Positions 43,377-49,386 of a stretch of DNA of 64,000 bases are shown one piece after another. This DNA comes from Oceanimonas sp. GK1 (lineage in GTDB: Bacteria > Pseudomonadota > Gammaproteobacteria > Enterobacterales > Aeromonadaceae): contig NC_016745.1 of NCBI RefSeq assembly GCF_000243075.1, positions 2,125,001 to 2,189,000 on the forward strand, read 5' to 3'. Position 1 is the stretch's first letter; each line of letters starts with the position of its first letter. The notes below the pieces were generated by a model. That model made no database searches, was not told the DNA's origin, and saw nothing but the letters and a program-made list of their open reading frames with translations. Both the position numbers and the translations under genes were made by a program.

Positions 43377-43658
43377 ATGCATATCGCTATGCTGACCATC
43401 ACCTTTTCTCTGCCGGGATGTGGCTCGTTAAAGGAAAAACGCCAGCGCATGGGTGGCATGCATGAACGGTTCGGGCGCAACCCGTCGGTCGCCGTGTGCG
43501 AGAGTGGCGAGCACAATAGTCACGATGCCAGCGAATGGTCCTTTGTGGTGGTGGCGGCCTCGCGACGGGAGGTGGAATCGCTGTGCAGCCGCATTGAAGA
43601 CAAGATACAGAGCACCGTAGACGCACGCATCATCAGCGTTACCCGCGAATTCCTGTAG
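43377..43658 (+). CDS. DUF503 family small protein
   Basis: This 93-residue protein begins MHIAMLTITFSLPGCGSLKEKRQRM, which fits the DUF503 (YlxP-like) pattern of a hydrophobic strand followed by SLKEKR. The C terminus, RIISVTREFL, also fits. Structures of the family show a ferredoxin-like fold; function is unknown, though YlxP of Firmicutes lies near ribosome-maturation genes. Here it is 8 nt before a DsbA-like gene, so the two are probably co-transcribed. A GGAGGA site precedes the ATG. Confidence 0.82.
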   Translation: MHIAMLTITFSLPGCGSLKEKRQRMGGMHERFGRNPSVAVCESGEHNSHDASEWSFVVVAASRREVESLCSRIEDKIQSTVDARIISVTREFL

Positions 43659-43665
43659 GAGTGTT

Positions 43666-44313
43666 ATGAAAAAGATACACATAGATATCGTTTCCGATAT
43701 TGCCTGCCCCTGGTGTGCCATTGGCTATGCCCGGCTGGCGCAGGCCATGGAGCGGCTGGCGCCCGACCATGAATTCAGCGTGCAGTGGAAGGCATTTGAG
43801 CTGAACCCGGATCACAGCGGGCAAGGTGAACCCATTCTGCCTGCCCTGGCCAGAAAATACGGGCGGAGCGAGCAGGAGATGCGGGAAAACCAGCAGCGCA
43901 TGAAGACCATTGCCACCGGGCTTGGCCTTAACTTTGAGAAAATACAGGAGCGGTTAACCTGCAATACCTTTGATGCCCACCGGCTGGTGAAGTGGGCAGG
44001 GGAGCAGGGCCGGCAAACCGCCATGAAACAGGCCTTATTCGAGGTGTATTTTGGCAAGGCGATGGATGTGTCTGATCACGCTGTGCTGCTGAGTTGCGTT
44101 CAGGCCCTGGGGCTGGACCCGGCAAAAGCCAGGCAGGTGCTGGACTCGGATCAATACGCCGATCTGGTGCGGGAAGAGGCAGCGACGTACCAGCAGGCCG
44201 GAGTCAGTTCTGTACCCGCCTTTATTATCAACAACCAGTACCTGATTGCCGGCGCCCAGGAGCCCGATGCCCTGGTGCAGGCCCTGCAAGAGATTGGCGT
44301 CGAGTCTGCCTGA
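43666..44313 (+). CDS. DsbA-family thiol oxidoreductase (FrnE-like)
   Basis: This 215-residue cytoplasmic thioredoxin-fold protein has the redox motif CPWC at Cys14-Cys17 and a cis-proline loop in SSVPAFIINNQYLIAGAQ (about 183). The inserted helical domain lies between. There is no signal peptide. FrnE-type proteins act as disulfide isomerases or in polyketide handling; 2-hydroxychromene-2-carboxylate isomerases are related. It ends in a strong terminator, and the AT-rich accessory block begins just after it. Confidence 0.9.
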   Translation: MKKIHIDIVSDIACPWCAIGYARLAQAMERLAPDHEFSVQWKAFELNPDHSGQGEPILPALARKYGRSEQEMRENQQRMKTIATGLGLNFEKIQERLTCNTFDAHRLVKWAGEQGRQTAMKQALFEVYFGKAMDVSDHAVLLSCVQALGLDPAKARQVLDSDQYADLVREEAATYQQAGVSSVPAFIINNQYLIAGAQEPDALVQALQEIGVESA

Positions 44314-44331
44314 AGGCTCACCTTATAGCCA

Positions 44332-44356
44332 ACGGCCCGCACTGCGGGCCGTTTTT
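44332..44356 (+). terminator. Terminator after the DsbA-like gene
   Basis: A perfect 9-bp stem ACGGCCCGC / GCGGGCCGT with an ACT loop is followed by T residues. It marks the left side of the AT-rich block. Confidence 0.9.
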
Positions 44357-44816
44357 GTTGGTTTCATTTGAATTCTTTCTCGGCTGCGGCAAAATACGAT
44401 GCACAATCAAAGCCTCACCAGGCCGGGTCGCCAGTAAGATCGGGGCGGTAGCGTGGCTTTTGCCCGTATGCATTAGTGTTCTGAGGGTGAGTCACACGAA
44501 CCTCTAACTTGTATACATATACAGTTATATTGAGTCTCGTAGCTGGTTTGCGCTTTGTTTCACTCATCGGAGTTCTCGAATGCCAGCAAGTGACCTACCA
44601 ATATGGTCATAAATCATGGCGTTATGACTGGTCCATGAAAGCATTCAAGACTTGATTGCGGAGTTATTGAGCAGTCTCAATTTCACGCACTGTAGAAGCG
44701 CCCGAGAGCTAATTTTATCTATTTAAATCAAATGGTTAGCTTGGGTTTGATAGAGGGCTCGGTTTGTTTTTATTTAGCTGGGTCAATATACAAATGTTAA
44801 ATCCTAAAGGGACTGT
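44357..44816. other. Non-coding left flank of the AT-rich block
   Basis: This 460-bp stretch has no supported gene. Base composition changes from G+C-rich to AT-rich near 44500. A 7-bp inverted repeat GTCATAA / TTATGAC (44606-44628) encloses a GGCGTTATG sequence that resembles the right end of an integron attC site, but no matching left half was found. The end of the stretch holds the AAAGG ribosome site (44806-44810) of the next gene. Confidence 0.5.
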
Positions 44817-45512
44817 ATGACACTGATTGAGCTTGAAGCTCTAGCATCTGAAAAACTCTCGATAAACAACGAAGAAAGCAGAACGAGCTTTCTTCGATTG
44901 TTAAATACAGGCTTGCTTGTAAATGTCATTGACAACTTGTTAGGTAATGAAAGAGAGCTTAATGAAGTAGCAAGCAGATCCTATTACCACAACAACGGAT
45001 TTTTAAAGGTTGTGTTGATAGAAAAGCGACCTAAATATTCTGTTAGGTTTCACATTTGGCCTGAAGAGTCATTTCAAGCTCCTGATGTCCATAATCATCC
45101 TTGGGACATGACTGGATTAGTTTTGAATGGTTCATATGAGTGGCCAATATATTCTCTTGACCAAACTTCGGAAGGCAGTGAAAGTTTTGATTTATTTGAA
45201 TGCCGGTATTTGGAAGACTACTCAGGGCATTCGTTCCATGATCTTGATAAGGTTATTTTAAATCAGGTAGATAAACTAAGTTTTCAGCAAGGTGATATTT
45301 TTCAATTTCCTCAGACACAGTACCATAGTGTAAGAAAAGAGAATTCCCAACCCGCAGAATCAATAGTCATAACTGGTGACTCAGTAGGGTTAAGTGCAAA
45401 TGTGATTACAAACCGGAAAATCATGTGTAGCTCTATATCTAAAAACTCCTCTGTCGAGAGTTCTTTCTTACAAGGTAAATTGTCTTCATTTCTAGAGCGG
45501 AGGTTGCCTTGA
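44817..45512 (+). CDS. Unrecognised protein, possible cupin fold
   Basis: This 231-residue protein was not recognised. Central strands with DVHNHPWDMTGLVLNGSYEW (His92, His94) and a later QGDIFQFPQTQYHSV (His170) resemble the two metal-binding motifs of cupins, so a small-molecule or amino-acid-type dioxygenase or sensor is conceivable. No signal peptide or membrane segment was seen. AAAGG lies 6 nt before the ATG. Its stop overlaps the TTG start of the next gene, so the pair is translationally coupled. Codon use is AT-rich and unlike the host genes, which suggests transfer. Confidence 0.72.
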   Translation: MTLIELEALASEKLSINNEESRTSFLRLLNTGLLVNVIDNLLGNERELNEVASRSYYHNNGFLKVVLIEKRPKYSVRFHIWPEESFQAPDVHNHPWDMTGLVLNGSYEWPIYSLDQTSEGSESFDLFECRYLEDYSGHSFHDLDKVILNQVDKLSFQQGDIFQFPQTQYHSVRKENSQPAESIVITGDSVGLSANVITNRKIMCSSISKNSSVESSFLQGKLSSFLERRLP

Positions 45513-46411
45513 TTGTTAAAGATATAATAAAAAGTCCTTATAAATTAAGGGTTTACTTTGTTAGTCTAGTAATGTTTTTAGTATTCATGATAGTTGCTAA
45601 TTATTACTTGTTACCTAAAGCATTTATTTACTTTGGAAGCAATTATGAAGGTGCGATCCCTTCATTTATTAATAATTTAATAGCGCTACTTGGTTCAAGC
45701 TTGATTGCTTCCGGCTTTATATGGTTTGTAACACCCAGTGGTTTAAATAGTAATGATGTGAATGTGATTTCCTCACATGATATTAAAGATTTTCTTAATT
45801 CCATGCTAAATAGAACCGAACGCTTTTCCTACTATGGTCATACGGCTAGGTGGAACAGAGCAGTCACATTTCCAAAAATTCTAGAGCAGGCTAAAGATTT
45901 AAGAGTTACTAAGCATATTGATTTGATAATAATCGACCCAGATGATGCAAGTGCTTGTAACCTCTATGCTTCATTCGGGCATGGCGAAAGAAAAAAAGGT
46001 AGAAAAATTCAGTCAGCAACAGATGTAAGAATTGAACTACTTACAACTTTTTTGTGTTGCATAGAAATCAATAAATCACCATTTATCGAAATCGGTTTAT
46101 ATGTAACAGATAAGGTTTCAATATCTAGGTTTGATATTTCCGATAATGCATTGATGTTGACTAAACCATATCAAGGTGATCCTGCTCTTTATTTTCCCAA
46201 AAACACATTCTTTTACTCTTCGTATAAAGAGGAATTTAATGTCGCCAAGCAGCAATGTAAAAGGATAAATTTGGACATTTCAGAAAAAGACATCAAAGAA
46301 TCGAATCTAAAGAAGGCACTTTGTGAGGCTGGTTTTCAGGCAGACTATGTTGATAGCGAATTTGGAAAAGAACTATTGGAAACATTTGGCAAAGTAGAAA
46401 AGCCATATTGA
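45509..46411 (+). CDS. Unrecognised two-helix membrane protein with cytoplasmic domain
   Basis: This 300-residue protein has two transmembrane segments (about 15-36 and 52-72) followed by a soluble domain. Motifs YYGHTARWNRAV (about 108) and HIDLIIIDPDD (about 142) and a later FFYSSYKEEF pattern recall the PLD-like phosphodiesterase layout, but no HKD motif is present, so activity is not claimed. The start is TTG at 45509 with GGAGG 5 nt upstream, overlapping the previous stop by 3 nt. It is AT-rich. An attC-like hairpin follows its stop at once. Membrane-anchored effector with a coupled cupin partner is one reading, offered as inference only. Confidence 0.72.
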   Translation: MIVKDIIKSPYKLRVYFVSLVMFLVFMIVANYYLLPKAFIYFGSNYEGAIPSFINNLIALLGSSLIASGFIWFVTPSGLNSNDVNVISSHDIKDFLNSMLNRTERFSYYGHTARWNRAVTFPKILEQAKDLRVTKHIDLIIIDPDDASACNLYASFGHGERKKGRKIQSATDVRIELLTTFLCCIEINKSPFIEIGLYVTDKVSISRFDISDNALMLTKPYQGDPALYFPKNTFFYSSYKEEFNVAKQQCKRINLDISEKDIKESNLKKALCEAGFQADYVDSEFGKELLETFGKVEKPY

Positions 46412-46480
46412 TTTAACAAGCGCATGTTGTCGGACTGTTTTTCCGCTGCGCTCCAAACCAGCCGCAAATGCGAGCGTTAT
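46411..46480. other. attC-like recombination site A
   Basis: Left end ATTTAAC fits RYYYAAC exactly; right end is GCGTTAT. Reading inward, AAC pairs with GTT, a 3-nt unpaired spacer follows (AAG against GCT), then CGCAT-TTG-CGG-CTG blocks pair across the arms with extra single bases on one side. This is the paired R/L box plus extrahelical-base layout of integron attC sites. It is about 70 bp long, a usual size. Confidence 0.65.
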
Positions 46481-46531
46481 AGCGCAATAGAGAACTATGC
46501 GTAATTTGTTCAATGTCATAACTCAGAAAAA

Positions 46532-46891
46532 ATGGGCTTTTCTGCTTCTGGACTGTCTGAGCCTAAGAAACACACTGATAAAAGTGTAAGAAATATATCA
46601 TCAAATAGGGTGTGGACTATTAGTGGCGAAGGTTCATCACCAAAGACGACCTATCTGGCAGGGGTATTTACAGTTTCCCGAGTATCATCAGACACATTTG
46701 ACCATCCAGACTTTAAAAAATCAGCATGTGGTTCCGGCTATATAATTGGTAAAAAGGTAGCTTTAAATGGTCTAGGTTGGTTCGAGGTGTTCAAGTCTGA
46801 TATGAATAATTTCATTAATAGCCTCTCAGAAATAACTAATAGGGCACTTATTGAAGGATTAGAAAGCGCATCGGTACCATATACGCTATAA
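46532..46891 (+). CDS. Unrecognised small protein in a cassette-like unit
   Basis: This 119-residue protein was not recognised. It starts MGFSASGLSEPKKHTDKS and has no signal peptide or membrane segment; the middle is serine- and threonine-rich (TTYLAGVFTVSRVSSDTF). The start is about 54 nt after attC-like site A, and the stop codon lies inside the left end of attC-like site B, so the unit has gene-cassette proportions. The ribosome site is weak. It could be a fragment of a longer family, but I see no frameshift evidence. Confidence 0.55.
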   Translation: MGFSASGLSEPKKHTDKSVRNISSNRVWTISGEGSSPKTTYLAGVFTVSRVSSDTFDHPDFKKSACGSGYIIGKKVALNGLGWFEVFKSDMNNFINSLSEITNRALIEGLESASVPYTL

Positions 46892-47018
46892 CAAGGTGGT
46901 CAAGTTCACTCTGGATCTCACTACGCTTGGCATTTTTTGATTGGGTCTAGTTTAGTGATTGCGAAGTTCAAATTGAGCTGTGTGGTAGTATAGTTCACAC
47001 CTTAATTGGACGTTACCT
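46886..47018. other. attC-like recombination site B (lower confidence)
   Basis: The ends CTATAACAAGGTGG and GGACGTTACC resemble attC left and right ends, and the stop codon of the preceding gene is embedded in the left box. The 130-bp length is within the VCR-type range. Internal arm pairing is poor by eye, so this may be degenerate or fortuitous. Confidence 0.4.
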
Positions 47019-47043
47019 GAATTGTATTGGAACGTATCTAAAA

Positions 47044-47943
47044 ATGATTGAGCTAGGGATTTATATATTTATAATTACATTTTTTTCTGTTTTGGCAGGA
47101 ATTATTGAACATAACAAAGATCTTGGTAAGATTAGAAGGATTGCAAAAAAAACTAGAGCTTTGGGTGTAAGAGAATGTTTGGCGTTACTAGTTTGGTTGT
47201 GCATTATTGCGATGTATTTTATTGTGTTTTTTCTGAATTTAGGTGTCAGCGTTAGCCAGTGTTTTATTATTGGTGTTTTTCTGTTTGCTTCATTGTCTGC
47301 TTTGCTTCTTGTAATAATAGATTATAAGTTGGCGCAGTTGGCTGAAATGTACCCAAAAGTAACTTCCACAATCTTTGGGTCATCTGTTCTTATTGTTACT
47401 CTGCTGACTAATGTATATGTGGACTATGAGATCTCTAAATTGACAAGCTTGAGTGCCAGTCTGTTTCCGAATGCGCAGAAACTGATATTAATACTTTGGG
47501 CGCCTATATTTTGGATCTTTGTAATCATATTGCTCTCATTCATTTTTTATGTGTTCCATGGCTTGATCACATGTATTCGCATGGCTAGGGAAATATCTTA
47601 TGTTAATAGCCTTTACAATGTCTTATGTTTGTTTTTGGGGGTAAAACGTAATCATCGCGGCTTTAATGTTTACATGGATTTGGCAATTTCTTTGGGGCTG
47701 CTTATTGTATTAGTAACATTTCCGAAAATTATAAGTGGCTATACTAATAGTGATTATTTTAAAGAATCAGTAAGCAGCCTGTTGGTTTTTTCGTCGTATC
47801 GAGAGGCGGAAAGAAGTTGTGCCAATATTGATGACCCTAAATTGGCAATATCTTTTCTAAAGGGTAATGATATATCCATAGCTAAGTTTCAAGAAAATGT
47901 TGGCTATAGATTTTCAGTTGGTGAGTGTATTCGCTCAAGATAA
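47044..47943 (+). CDS. Unrecognised polytopic membrane protein
   Basis: This 299-residue protein was not recognised. About six hydrophobic segments are visible (near 3-20, 44-66, 72-93, 108-125, 146-170 and 210-230) followed by a soluble C-terminal tail of about 65 residues. No transporter motif was seen. It begins about 30 nt after attC-like site B, in the same direction as the other genes of the block, and is AT-rich. No attC was found after it. Gene prediction is based on length and hydrophobic pattern. Confidence 0.65.
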   Translation: MIELGIYIFIITFFSVLAGIIEHNKDLGKIRRIAKKTRALGVRECLALLVWLCIIAMYFIVFFLNLGVSVSQCFIIGVFLFASLSALLLVIIDYKLAQLAEMYPKVTSTIFGSSVLIVTLLTNVYVDYEISKLTSLSASLFPNAQKLILILWAPIFWIFVIILLSFIFYVFHGLITCIRMAREISYVNSLYNVLCLFLGVKRNHRGFNVYMDLAISLGLLIVLVTFPKIISGYTNSDYFKESVSSLLVFSSYREAERSCANIDDPKLAISFLKGNDISIAKFQENVGYRFSVGECIRSR

Positions 47944-48039
47944 AAGATCAAAGCACATGAACTTGGAGAAGTCGTTAGTTTTTACAAGAAAAAGTAGCTA
48001 GCCTTACCAAGCCAGTGTTTGAGGTGTTAAGGAATAGTG

Positions 48040-48426
48040 ATGATCATAATCTATGGAATAAAAGAAAACCTCAACCCGATAAAAGCTGAATTGTCGAATG
48101 TAATCCATGGCTGTATGCAAAGTGTACTGGGCATGCCGGAAGATAAACGAGCGCATCGTATTGTGCCCCTGGATAAAGATGACTTTTATTATCCTGGCGG
48201 CAGGAGCGATGCGTATACGGTTATCGAGATCAATATGATGGCTGGTCGCAAGCCCGAGACCCAGAGAGAGCTGATTAAAACCCTGTTTCGTGAAATAGAG
48301 TCTCAGATCGGGCTGAGTCCTGTTGATGTGGAAATCACCATCAAGGAGCAACAACCCTATCAGTGGGGATTCAGGGGAATGACGGGTGATGAAGCGAGGG
48401 ATCTCAGCTATAAGGTCAATGTGTGA
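48040..48426 (+). CDS. Tautomerase-like protein without an N-terminal proline
   Basis: This 128-residue protein resembles the second tautomerase family (beta-alpha-beta repeats, trimer-forming; SDAYTVIEINMMAGRKPETQRELIKTLFREIE). In tautomerases Pro1 is the catalytic base. Here the N terminus is MIIIYGIKE, with no proline after the initiator, so the usual chemistry may be lost. The ATG at 48040 lies 6 nt after AAGGA; the GTG at 48037 is too close. G+C content returns towards the host level. Confidence 0.75.
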   Translation: MIIIYGIKENLNPIKAELSNVIHGCMQSVLGMPEDKRAHRIVPLDKDDFYYPGGRSDAYTVIEINMMAGRKPETQRELIKTLFREIESQIGLSPVDVEITIKEQQPYQWGFRGMTGDEARDLSYKVNV

Positions 48427-48474
48427 ATCTCGGGCTGTTACACTGTCACCCGCATGATTTTTCGGAGAAATAAC

Positions 48475-49386
48475 ATGAGCACCTATCCCATAGGTACGCC
48501 CGGCAAGCCCTGGGGCGAGGCGGAGCGCACCGAATGGCTGGCCCGGCAGCGCCGCCAGCGCAGTTATGAAGCAGACGCACTCAGTGCAATCGAGCGCCTG
48601 GCTTCGCGCTTTGATGTGCAGCAGTACGGTGAGCTGAATGTTGGCGATGAGCGTTTTCCGCTGATGGCCATTCGCAGCCGCGACTGGCGGGAGGAGCTGC
48701 CGGTGGTGCTGGTAACCGGGGGCGTGCACGGTTATGAAACCAGCGGTGTGCACGGGGCGCTGCAGTTTGTGGAGCAGCATGGCGAGCGTTACGCCGGCCG
48801 GGTGAATTGGCTGGTGGCGCCCTGCGTCAGCCCCTGGGCTTATGAGCGCATTCAGCGTTGGAATGCCAATGCGGTAGATCCTAACCGTTCATTTACAGCA
48901 AACAGCCCGGCGGCCGAATCGGCGGCACTCATGCAACTGGTGGCACCGGTGCGTGAGCGGGTGTTGCTGCACATCGATCTGCACGAAACCACGGATACCG
49001 ATGAAAGCGAGTTTCGCCCGGCGCTGGCCGCGCGGGATGGCAAGCCTTTTACGCCTTGCGGCATTCCCGATGGCTTTTATCTGGTGGACGACAGCGAGTA
49101 TCCGCAGCCTGCCTTTCAGCAGGCGGTCATCGCCGCAGTGGAAAAAGTCACTCACATTGCACCGGCGGATGAAAATGGCGAGATCATCGGCTCTCCGGTG
49201 GTGGCCAGAGGGGTGATTGAATATCCGCTGACCCGGCTTGGGCTGTGCGCCGGCATGACCAACGCCCATTACAAGACCACCACGGAAGTGTACCCCAACA
49301 GCCCCCGCGCCACGCCTGAGCAGTACAATGCCGCCCAGGTGGCGGCGGTGTGTGGGGCCATCGACTATGCACTGGCGCAACCTTAA
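48475..49386 (+). CDS. M14-family zinc metallopeptidase / succinylglutamate desuccinylase-like
   Basis: This 303-residue cytoplasmic hydrolase has the zinc ligands of the M14 family: His85 and Glu88 in VHGYE, then His166 or His170 in HIDLHE. NAVDPNRSF is the substrate-carboxylate-binding NPNR motif, and the catalytic glutamate is Glu271 in TTTEVYPN. It is shorter than secreted carboxypeptidases and lacks a signal peptide, so an amino-acyl or small-peptide substrate is likely. GGAG lies upstream of the ATG at 48475. The two GNAT genes follow 39 nt later. Confidence 0.86.
   Translation: MSTYPIGTPGKPWGEAERTEWLARQRRQRSYEADALSAIERLASRFDVQQYGELNVGDERFPLMAIRSRDWREELPVVLVTGGVHGYETSGVHGALQFVEQHGERYAGRVNWLVAPCVSPWAYERIQRWNANAVDPNRSFTANSPAAESAALMQLVAPVRERVLLHIDLHETTDTDESEFRPALAARDGKPFTPCGIPDGFYLVDDSEYPQPAFQQAVIAAVEKVTHIAPADENGEIIGSPVVARGVIEYPLTRLGLCAGMTNAHYKTTTEVYPNSPRATPEQYNAAQVAAVCGAIDYALAQP

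Follow-up and report, generated by a model that had tools for sequence, protein, structure and literature searches.

CALINs, clusters of attC sites that have no integron integrase, are a described class of genome feature; among the origins that Cury et al. proposed for them, cited in the available part of PMC8618304, is loss of the integrase gene intI. Chromosomal integrons of Xanthomonas with an inactivated intI offer a close example: in the accessible passages of PMC12444791, the ancestral site lies by ilvD, many lineages have lost intI and the cassettes stay in place. A second kind of system is that of the long operons headed by ops (JUMPstart) and controlled by RfaH. The available passages of PMC6391919 name capsule and toxin targets for RfaH-like factors, the word integron being absent from its text, and PMC4048246 mentions RfaH, JUMPstart and integron, its accessible passages concerning a capsule locus. 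No paper linking RfaH, ops or JUMPstart to integrons was found in the open-access library searched. Here, a 64,000-bp stretch of the chromosome of Oceanimonas sp. GK1 (NC_016745.1, positions 2,125,001 to 2,189,000; hereafter the window, numbered from its first letter) is analysed. It holds an AT-rich block of genes that is a cassette array without integron integrase, headed by an ops leader and, by inference, probably controlled by RfaH. CALINs arising by intI loss are known (PMC8618304, PMC12444791), and so are RfaH/ops operons; as far as the accessible parts of these sources go, their combination appears new.

The array resembles CALINs in its three attC sites of one orientation, its cassette genes and its lack of intI, but differs from them in having kept an attI-like site, a remnant of the intI promoter and an ops leader. 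With the Xanthomonas integrons, it shares an ancestral site beside one chromosomal gene, the loss of intI and the persistence of the cassettes. However, the accessible part of PMC12444791 describes the ilvD site together with CALINs elsewhere and mentions no shared leader, whereas here one leader type recurs at several arrays within a genome. In the same way, an exact ops core, a leader placed before AT-rich foreign units and an RfaH-family gene are common to this locus and to the RfaH/ops operons, as these are presented in the available passages of PMC6391919; unlike in these operons, what is carried here is a set of integron cassettes, and in copies that still have intI the leader points antisense through this gene.

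The original prediction, made from the letters of the window and its open reading frames (ORFs) alone, had described an AT-rich island with four genes on the same strand, and this observation is confirmed. The four ORFs of the island in the ORF list of the window all lie on the + strand, and the GC content is 0.34-0.37 per kb over 45001-48000, versus 0.55-0.56 in the kilobases at 42-44 and 48-49 kb. It had also proposed at least one attC, at 46411-46480. The attC search was done with a covariance model made for this work (R1) and not with HattCI or IntegronFinder. R1 was built from 29 attCs of integrons of relatives, none of them from the window, that were chosen by motif and arm pairing; its alignment shows compensatory changes in 8 of the 12 predicted pairs, and it gives its own training sites 28-65 bits. 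The proposed site is matched by R1 at 46411..46483 on the + strand (attC1) with 43.3 bits and an E value of 6e-9 over both strands of the 64-kb window. attC1 shares 95.9% identity over 74 bp with a Pseudoalteromonas locus (L046) and 92.5% over 67 bp with an attC of another locus (L066). Its right box, GTTATAG, deviates from GTTRRRY. When folded alone as DNA it has an ordinary stability (z -1.3 for the bottom strand), and the evidence for it is therefore the model and the homology.

Two decayed sites bring the number of attCs to three. The long attC2 (46886..47019, + strand), which resembles the Vibrio cholerae repeats (VCR), receives only 7.0 bits from R1 on 46889-47015, but there it shares 67% identity over 100 bp with an attC of the relative G001 (L019 4127-4247, E 1.2e-5). 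The third, attC3 (47938..48033, + strand), overlaps the stop codon of ORF4 and obtains 15.9 bits (E 0.07 over the window), while its positions 47941-48029 share 75.6% identity over 90 bp with the L076 attC of G020 (E 9e-12). Thus, the locus has the two or more attCs of the same orientation expected of a CALIN, attC1 being recognised by covariance and attC2 and attC3 by homology to attCs of relatives. A further candidate at 44593-44628, which reaches 13.4 bits only with the filters off and lies inside the leader region aligning with G022, was rejected.

The three attCs imply three cassettes on the + strand: cassette 1 with ORF1, ORF2 and attC1 (44796..46475), cassette 2 with ORF3 and attC2 (46476..47011, delimited by the GTTs of attC1 and attC2) and cassette 3 with ORF4 and attC3 (47012..48025, delimited by the GTTs of attC2 and attC3). 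The first is also carried by two Pseudoalteromonas genomes, as a GTT-bounded unit: Pseudoalteromonas sp. CO133X has it at 91.9% nucleotide identity over window positions 44784-46479 (L046) and P. distincta at 88.8% over 44796-46472. This homology terminates at the GTT boundaries (GTTs at 44796 and 46476), to within 12 bp at its left end and 4 bp at its right end. Cassette 1 of CO133X adjoins an intI split over two frames, and R1 gives three attCs there, one of which is the cassette's own; the split intI separates cassette 1 (L046 5276-6971) from the two other attCs, as if it had been inserted off target. In P. distincta, the 12.9 kb analysed gave no intI. ORF2 has no match at E 0.001 in 74 other genomes of the family of the window, which does not fit a block conserved as an ordinary operon in related species. 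Cassette 1 is read as having spread laterally, Pseudoalteromonas presumably belonging to another family than the window. No second genomic location was found for cassettes 2 and 3. The block predicted at 44606..47943 is therefore a real cassette block, but neither of its ends stands: 44606 is no boundary, since the first cassette starts at the GTT at 44796 and is preceded by a leader that begins at 44356, and the right end moves from 47943 to about 48029.

The original prediction had also found no integrase in the window. There is none, and a search of the whole genome (G000) with TIGR02249 gives no intI either, only five partial matches to other tyrosine recombinases, the best of which has 80.7 bits against a cut-off of 265. 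One of the genes considered, the recombinase at G000:C1:1904736-1905182, was rejected as an integron integrase, being only a partial TIGR02249 match (2.1e-9). Thus, the intact intI of a complete integron is missing and, as in a CALIN, no integron integrase lies nearby; the attC search and the comparison across genomes together support the CALIN interpretation that had been put forward.

Beyond what could be seen from the window alone, the locus is an integron site of the genus. Full-length intI genes occur in 13 of its 23 genomes (TIGR02249). The chromosomal left flank of the array is a dsbA/FrnE-like gene (43666..44313, + strand; PF01323, E 5e-39), whose orthologue is adjoined on the opposite strand by an intact intI in G013, G020 and G009 and by a broken one in G005. 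On the right, a zinc-peptidase-like gene (AstE/M14; 48454..49386, + strand; PF24827) has orthologues that close the array in G013, G005, G001 and G017. The window aligns with G020 through dsbA to 44456, 55 bp short of the intI match of G020, and its positions 44483-44586 align with sequence that precedes intI in G022. Between the two, 44457..44483 appears as the scar at the position where relatives have their intI (about 1 kb, minus strand). The alignment with G022 also reveals, at 44509..44524, a LexA-box-like remnant of the intI promoter, TTGTATACATATACAG, with one change in its outer half-sites; relatives have CTGT-N8-ACAG, the LexA box. Further on, an attI-like site (44770..44798, + strand), to which the first cassette is joined at GTT 44796, aligns with the attI/first-cassette junction of G022: the identity between this junction and window 44770-44801 is 81% over 32 bp, with an E value of 0.64 when taken alone, but in register with the junction. 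In G022 itself (L027 3177-4040), the first cassette after attI is an aadA1-type gene that scores over the NCBIfam cut-off and has an attC behind it.

The second feature that the window alone did not reveal is the leader at the head of the array. This element (44356..44459, + strand) consists of a promoter-like stretch, a hairpin and ops, and scores 64.8 bits with R2, a sequence model made of 19 rows of which the window is one. The promoter-like stretch combines TTGAAT (44368-44373) and CAAAAT (44390-44395), separated by 16 bp. The hairpin (44426..44441, + strand) has a GGTC/GATC stem and an 8-nt loop, GCCAGTAA. Its conservation is supported by covariation in 53 aligned copies: helix 1 is paired in 96.7% of cases with all four pairs changed on both sides, and the structure shows 45 cells with two-sided changes versus 9.5 in shuffles, none of 500 shuffles reaching as high a value and slid controls collapsing. 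The GCC of the loop can also pair with the GGC of ops; this helix is near-invariant and thus without support from covariation. In relatives, the leader lies directly behind intI.

R2 finds the element in 22 of the 23 genomes of the genus (94 matches at E 0.01, the best 150 candidates per genome being scored out of 456-881). Fifty-five of these matches were examined: 65 matches score at least 30 bits, of which 53 were included, and two G000 matches below that score were added. The others are the remaining 12 of these 65, several of them at contig edges, and 27 weaker matches. An intI lies within 2 kb of 16 of the 55 copies and 39 have none, if any tblastn piece of at least 35% identity, remnants included, is counted as intI. 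Among the copies without intI, 38 have 4 kb or more of sequence, and 26 of these are followed by one or more attCs. All the downstream attCs are on the strand of the element (119, versus 0 on the other); these 119 include most of the R1 training sites, although among intI-less loci only the L065 site (the same as L022) was in training. Room upstream is mostly 500 bp, and the zero attCs found there therefore says little.

The 3' part of the leader is the ops/JUMPstart core GGGCGGTAGCGTG (44443..44455, + strand), a predicted RfaH loading site. The ops 12-mer is the sole copy in the window at 0 or 1 mismatch, and the leader thus has the exact ops core of RfaH/ops operons. The 12-mer is exact in 37 of the 53 copies of the element, and its first nine bases are present in 49; in the genus as a whole, the exact 12-mer occurs 109 times, versus 22 for the reversed pattern. 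Furthermore, an RfaH-family gene (TIGR01955) is present in all 23 genomes, above the curated cut-off in 22 and 0.4 bits below it in one. The host of the array encodes its own at G000:C1:847570-848046 (157.5 bits for a cut-off of 144.5).

Six exact ops sites were found in G000. Two of them head surface-polysaccharide operons, which are textbook targets of RfaH: one with Wzz, nucleotide-sugar and flippase genes (L102), the other with polysaccharide export and ManC genes and a weak ABC-2 match (L103); R1 finds no attC in either. The four others stand at the start of attC loci, namely that of the window and L042, L043 and L044, for which R1 gives 1, 3, 4 and 1 attCs, respectively; none of the four has intI. 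When R1 was run on the genome, all seven attC matches fell in three loci, and each of these begins with the leader; only the best 150 of 569 candidates were scored and the attC of the window was missed, so that the attC loci of G000 may exceed four. L042, L043 and L044 are located at about 1266-1269, 2289-2295 and 3438-3440 kb of G000:C1. L043 also holds an IS630 transposase, and L044 an AAA/OLD-like ORF with AriA/GajA-type PADLOC matches. Partial leader copies were seen at about 1899.8 and 1901.6 kb of the same contig (L086 2770-2890 and 4621-4707), about 3-5 kb from a recombinase gene, one of them with one base of ops changed and an attI-like sequence ahead of ops; G005, G007 and G019 have partial copies 3-4 kb from similar recombinase matches. 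Outside the family, G436 (L105 4505-5482) shows the same layout: downstream of two long + strand frames, an exact ops lies 12 bp from an intact intI match and points through intI.

From these data, with moderate confidence, the cassette arrays of the genus would form an RfaH regulon: each would be headed by a promoter, a hairpin and ops, would be expressed by antitermination and not by a short-range cassette promoter alone, would, where it has intI, have this gene crossed in antisense, and the leader would sit on several intI-less platforms per genome. For the locus itself it is quite probable that an integron of the genus sits between dsbA and the peptidase gene and that intI has gone from it here, so that the intI promoter region, the attI-like site and the three cassettes, which carry four genes, are what remains. 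RNA polymerase would start in the leader at about 44400, pause at ops and take up RfaH in place of NusG. The RfaH-bound polymerase could then read through attI and the cassettes, which are AT-rich and Rho-prone, in a single long transcript, and RfaH would in this way keep the arrays transcribed. Such loading would explain the distant expression of AT-rich cassettes, which are likely targets of Rho and NusG. Where intI is present, with the leader behind its stop codon, the transcript would run antisense through intI before reaching attI and the cassettes. If intI is lost, only 340 bp would separate ops from the first cassette, and the array would be frozen as an RfaH-controlled operon.

Several results weigh against this reading. 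A generic promoter scan did not return the proposed leader promoter, and R1 alone gives the window and L044 one attC each at E 0.01. Twelve of the 38 intI-less copies of the element show no attC. The whole element was found in none of the 288 non-congeners of a 295-genome sample of the order (E 1e-5, 13 candidates per genome scored with stricter filters), all seven congeners being matched. The ops of the window aligns with the 3' end of the JUMPstart consensus (Rfam RF01707) with 19.2 bits only (E 0.026), the gathering score being 35; L043 attains 23.7 of these 35 bits, below gathering too, nine other loci with the element gave no JUMPstart match up to E 3, and none reached gathering in six loci. 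With such scores, the wider JUMPstart RNA is not claimed here, only the exact ops. In G436, R1 finds no attC, the contig ending just past intI, and this genome provides the one intI with an adjoining exact ops among the matches listed for a 369-genome sample of the class (at most five TIGR02249 matches per genome, places of intI and ops compared by eye, exact 13-mer only). Lastly, the window and the relatives with the dsbA site share only 62-68% identity in their leaders, while the identity over 43500-44456 as a whole is 87-92%, and the attI side resembles that of G022, whose intI sits elsewhere. Given this low identity of the leader, the platform may have been exchanged, as opposed to a simple loss of intI.

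The alternative that survives best, although it seems doubtful, is that the intI-less arrays never had intI. A platform made of leader and attI would have been copied to several sites and filled by an IntI located elsewhere in the cell, now or in an ancestor. The 39 copies of the element out of 55 without intI within 2 kb would be expected in such a case, as would the several loci of this kind often held by genomes with a single intI; in addition, L043 and L044 can be aligned between ops and attI, as if they derived from one intI-less ancestor. However, the relatives with the dsbA site have intI in place, the window retains sequence of the intI promoter with its LexA-like box, and G000 contains no IntI that could act from elsewhere.

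The array could also be a plain decayed integron, in which attCs and cassettes survive as relics of a lost integron, while the ops-like sequence merely happens to lie next to them and plays no part in their expression. The decay of attC2 and attC3, the lack of intI in the genome and JUMPstart scores under gathering all agree with this idea, which nevertheless appears unlikely: the four attC loci found in G000 all start with an exact ops and the two other ops head polysaccharide operons, while the element is conserved with compensatory changes over 53 copies and is followed by attCs in one orientation, 119 to 0.

Capture of the cassettes by an IntI at a secondary site without any prior integron, one of the routes to CALINs proposed in the available part of PMC8618304, is very improbable here, the attI-like site, the remnant of the intI promoter and the leader all being present and the intI of relatives being located exactly at this place. 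As for an ordinary operon that is AT-rich and contains an attC-like sequence by chance, for which four same-strand genes and the unremarkable folding energy of attC1 could be invoked, it can practically be dismissed in view of the covariance match (E 6e-9), the two further attCs and, decisively, the GTT-bounded ends shared with Pseudoalteromonas.

The array carries four genes. ORF1 (44817..45512, + strand, 231 aa) is cupin-like, with a match to phrog_4786 (cysteine dioxygenase, E 1e-8) and Cupin_2 below its cut-off; H79, H92, H94 and H170 are invariant in an alignment of five homologues. ORF2 (45509..46411, + strand, 300 aa) begins with TTG and overlaps ORF1 by 4 nt; Pseudoalteromonas carries homologues of it, as do plasmids of Methylobacterium and Rhodococcus. 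ORF2 comprises two N-terminal transmembrane-like stretches, according to hydropathy, and a C-terminal domain without assigned family; an AlphaFold prediction made from three sequences had a mean pLDDT of 33.7. On both plasmids (L048 4986-6537 for Methylobacterium and L049 4779-6315 for Rhodococcus), the ORF2/ORF1 pair is found in swapped order, overlapping, and about 400 bp ahead of a recombinase-family gene; the Methylobacterium partner of ORF1 type is a tblastn match, and the Rhodococcus one is assigned by position and alignment only (23% identity). ORF1 and ORF2 may form a two-gene accessory or stress system, a suggestion made with low confidence. ORF3 (46532..46891, + strand, 119 aa) is 30% identical to a protein of a Polaromonas plasmid (E 5e-7), and ORF4 (47044..47943, + strand, 299 aa) is a membrane protein with several transmembrane-like stretches by hydropathy; ORF4 has no homologue on plasmids or viral contigs, bacterial genomes not having been searched with it. 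The guess that such arrays often carry defence genes finds no support for these four ORFs, none of which matches a known defence family of PADLOC at E 0.1. Scans of viral contigs with the four proteins and PDB sequence searches with the alignments A3 and A4, the latter being that of ORF1, gave nothing useful.

The strong terminator announced near 44332 is present at 44331..44353 (+ strand): this intrinsic terminator of dsbA, with a 10-bp GC-rich stem and a T run, parts dsbA from the leader of the array. At the right end of the array lies a tautomerase-like gene (48037..48426, + strand; PF14552, E 9e-23), fragments of which are found between the array and the peptidase gene in G017.

The locus thus provides an example of an integron without integrase that retains its site, a promoter remnant and its cassettes, and its leader gives a sequence tag for finding other integrase-less arrays. 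The expression of distal cassettes in chromosomal integrons is an open question. An RfaH loading site heading the arrays would be a specific and testable answer to it, and would tie integrons to the machinery by which bacteria express foreign AT-rich DNA.

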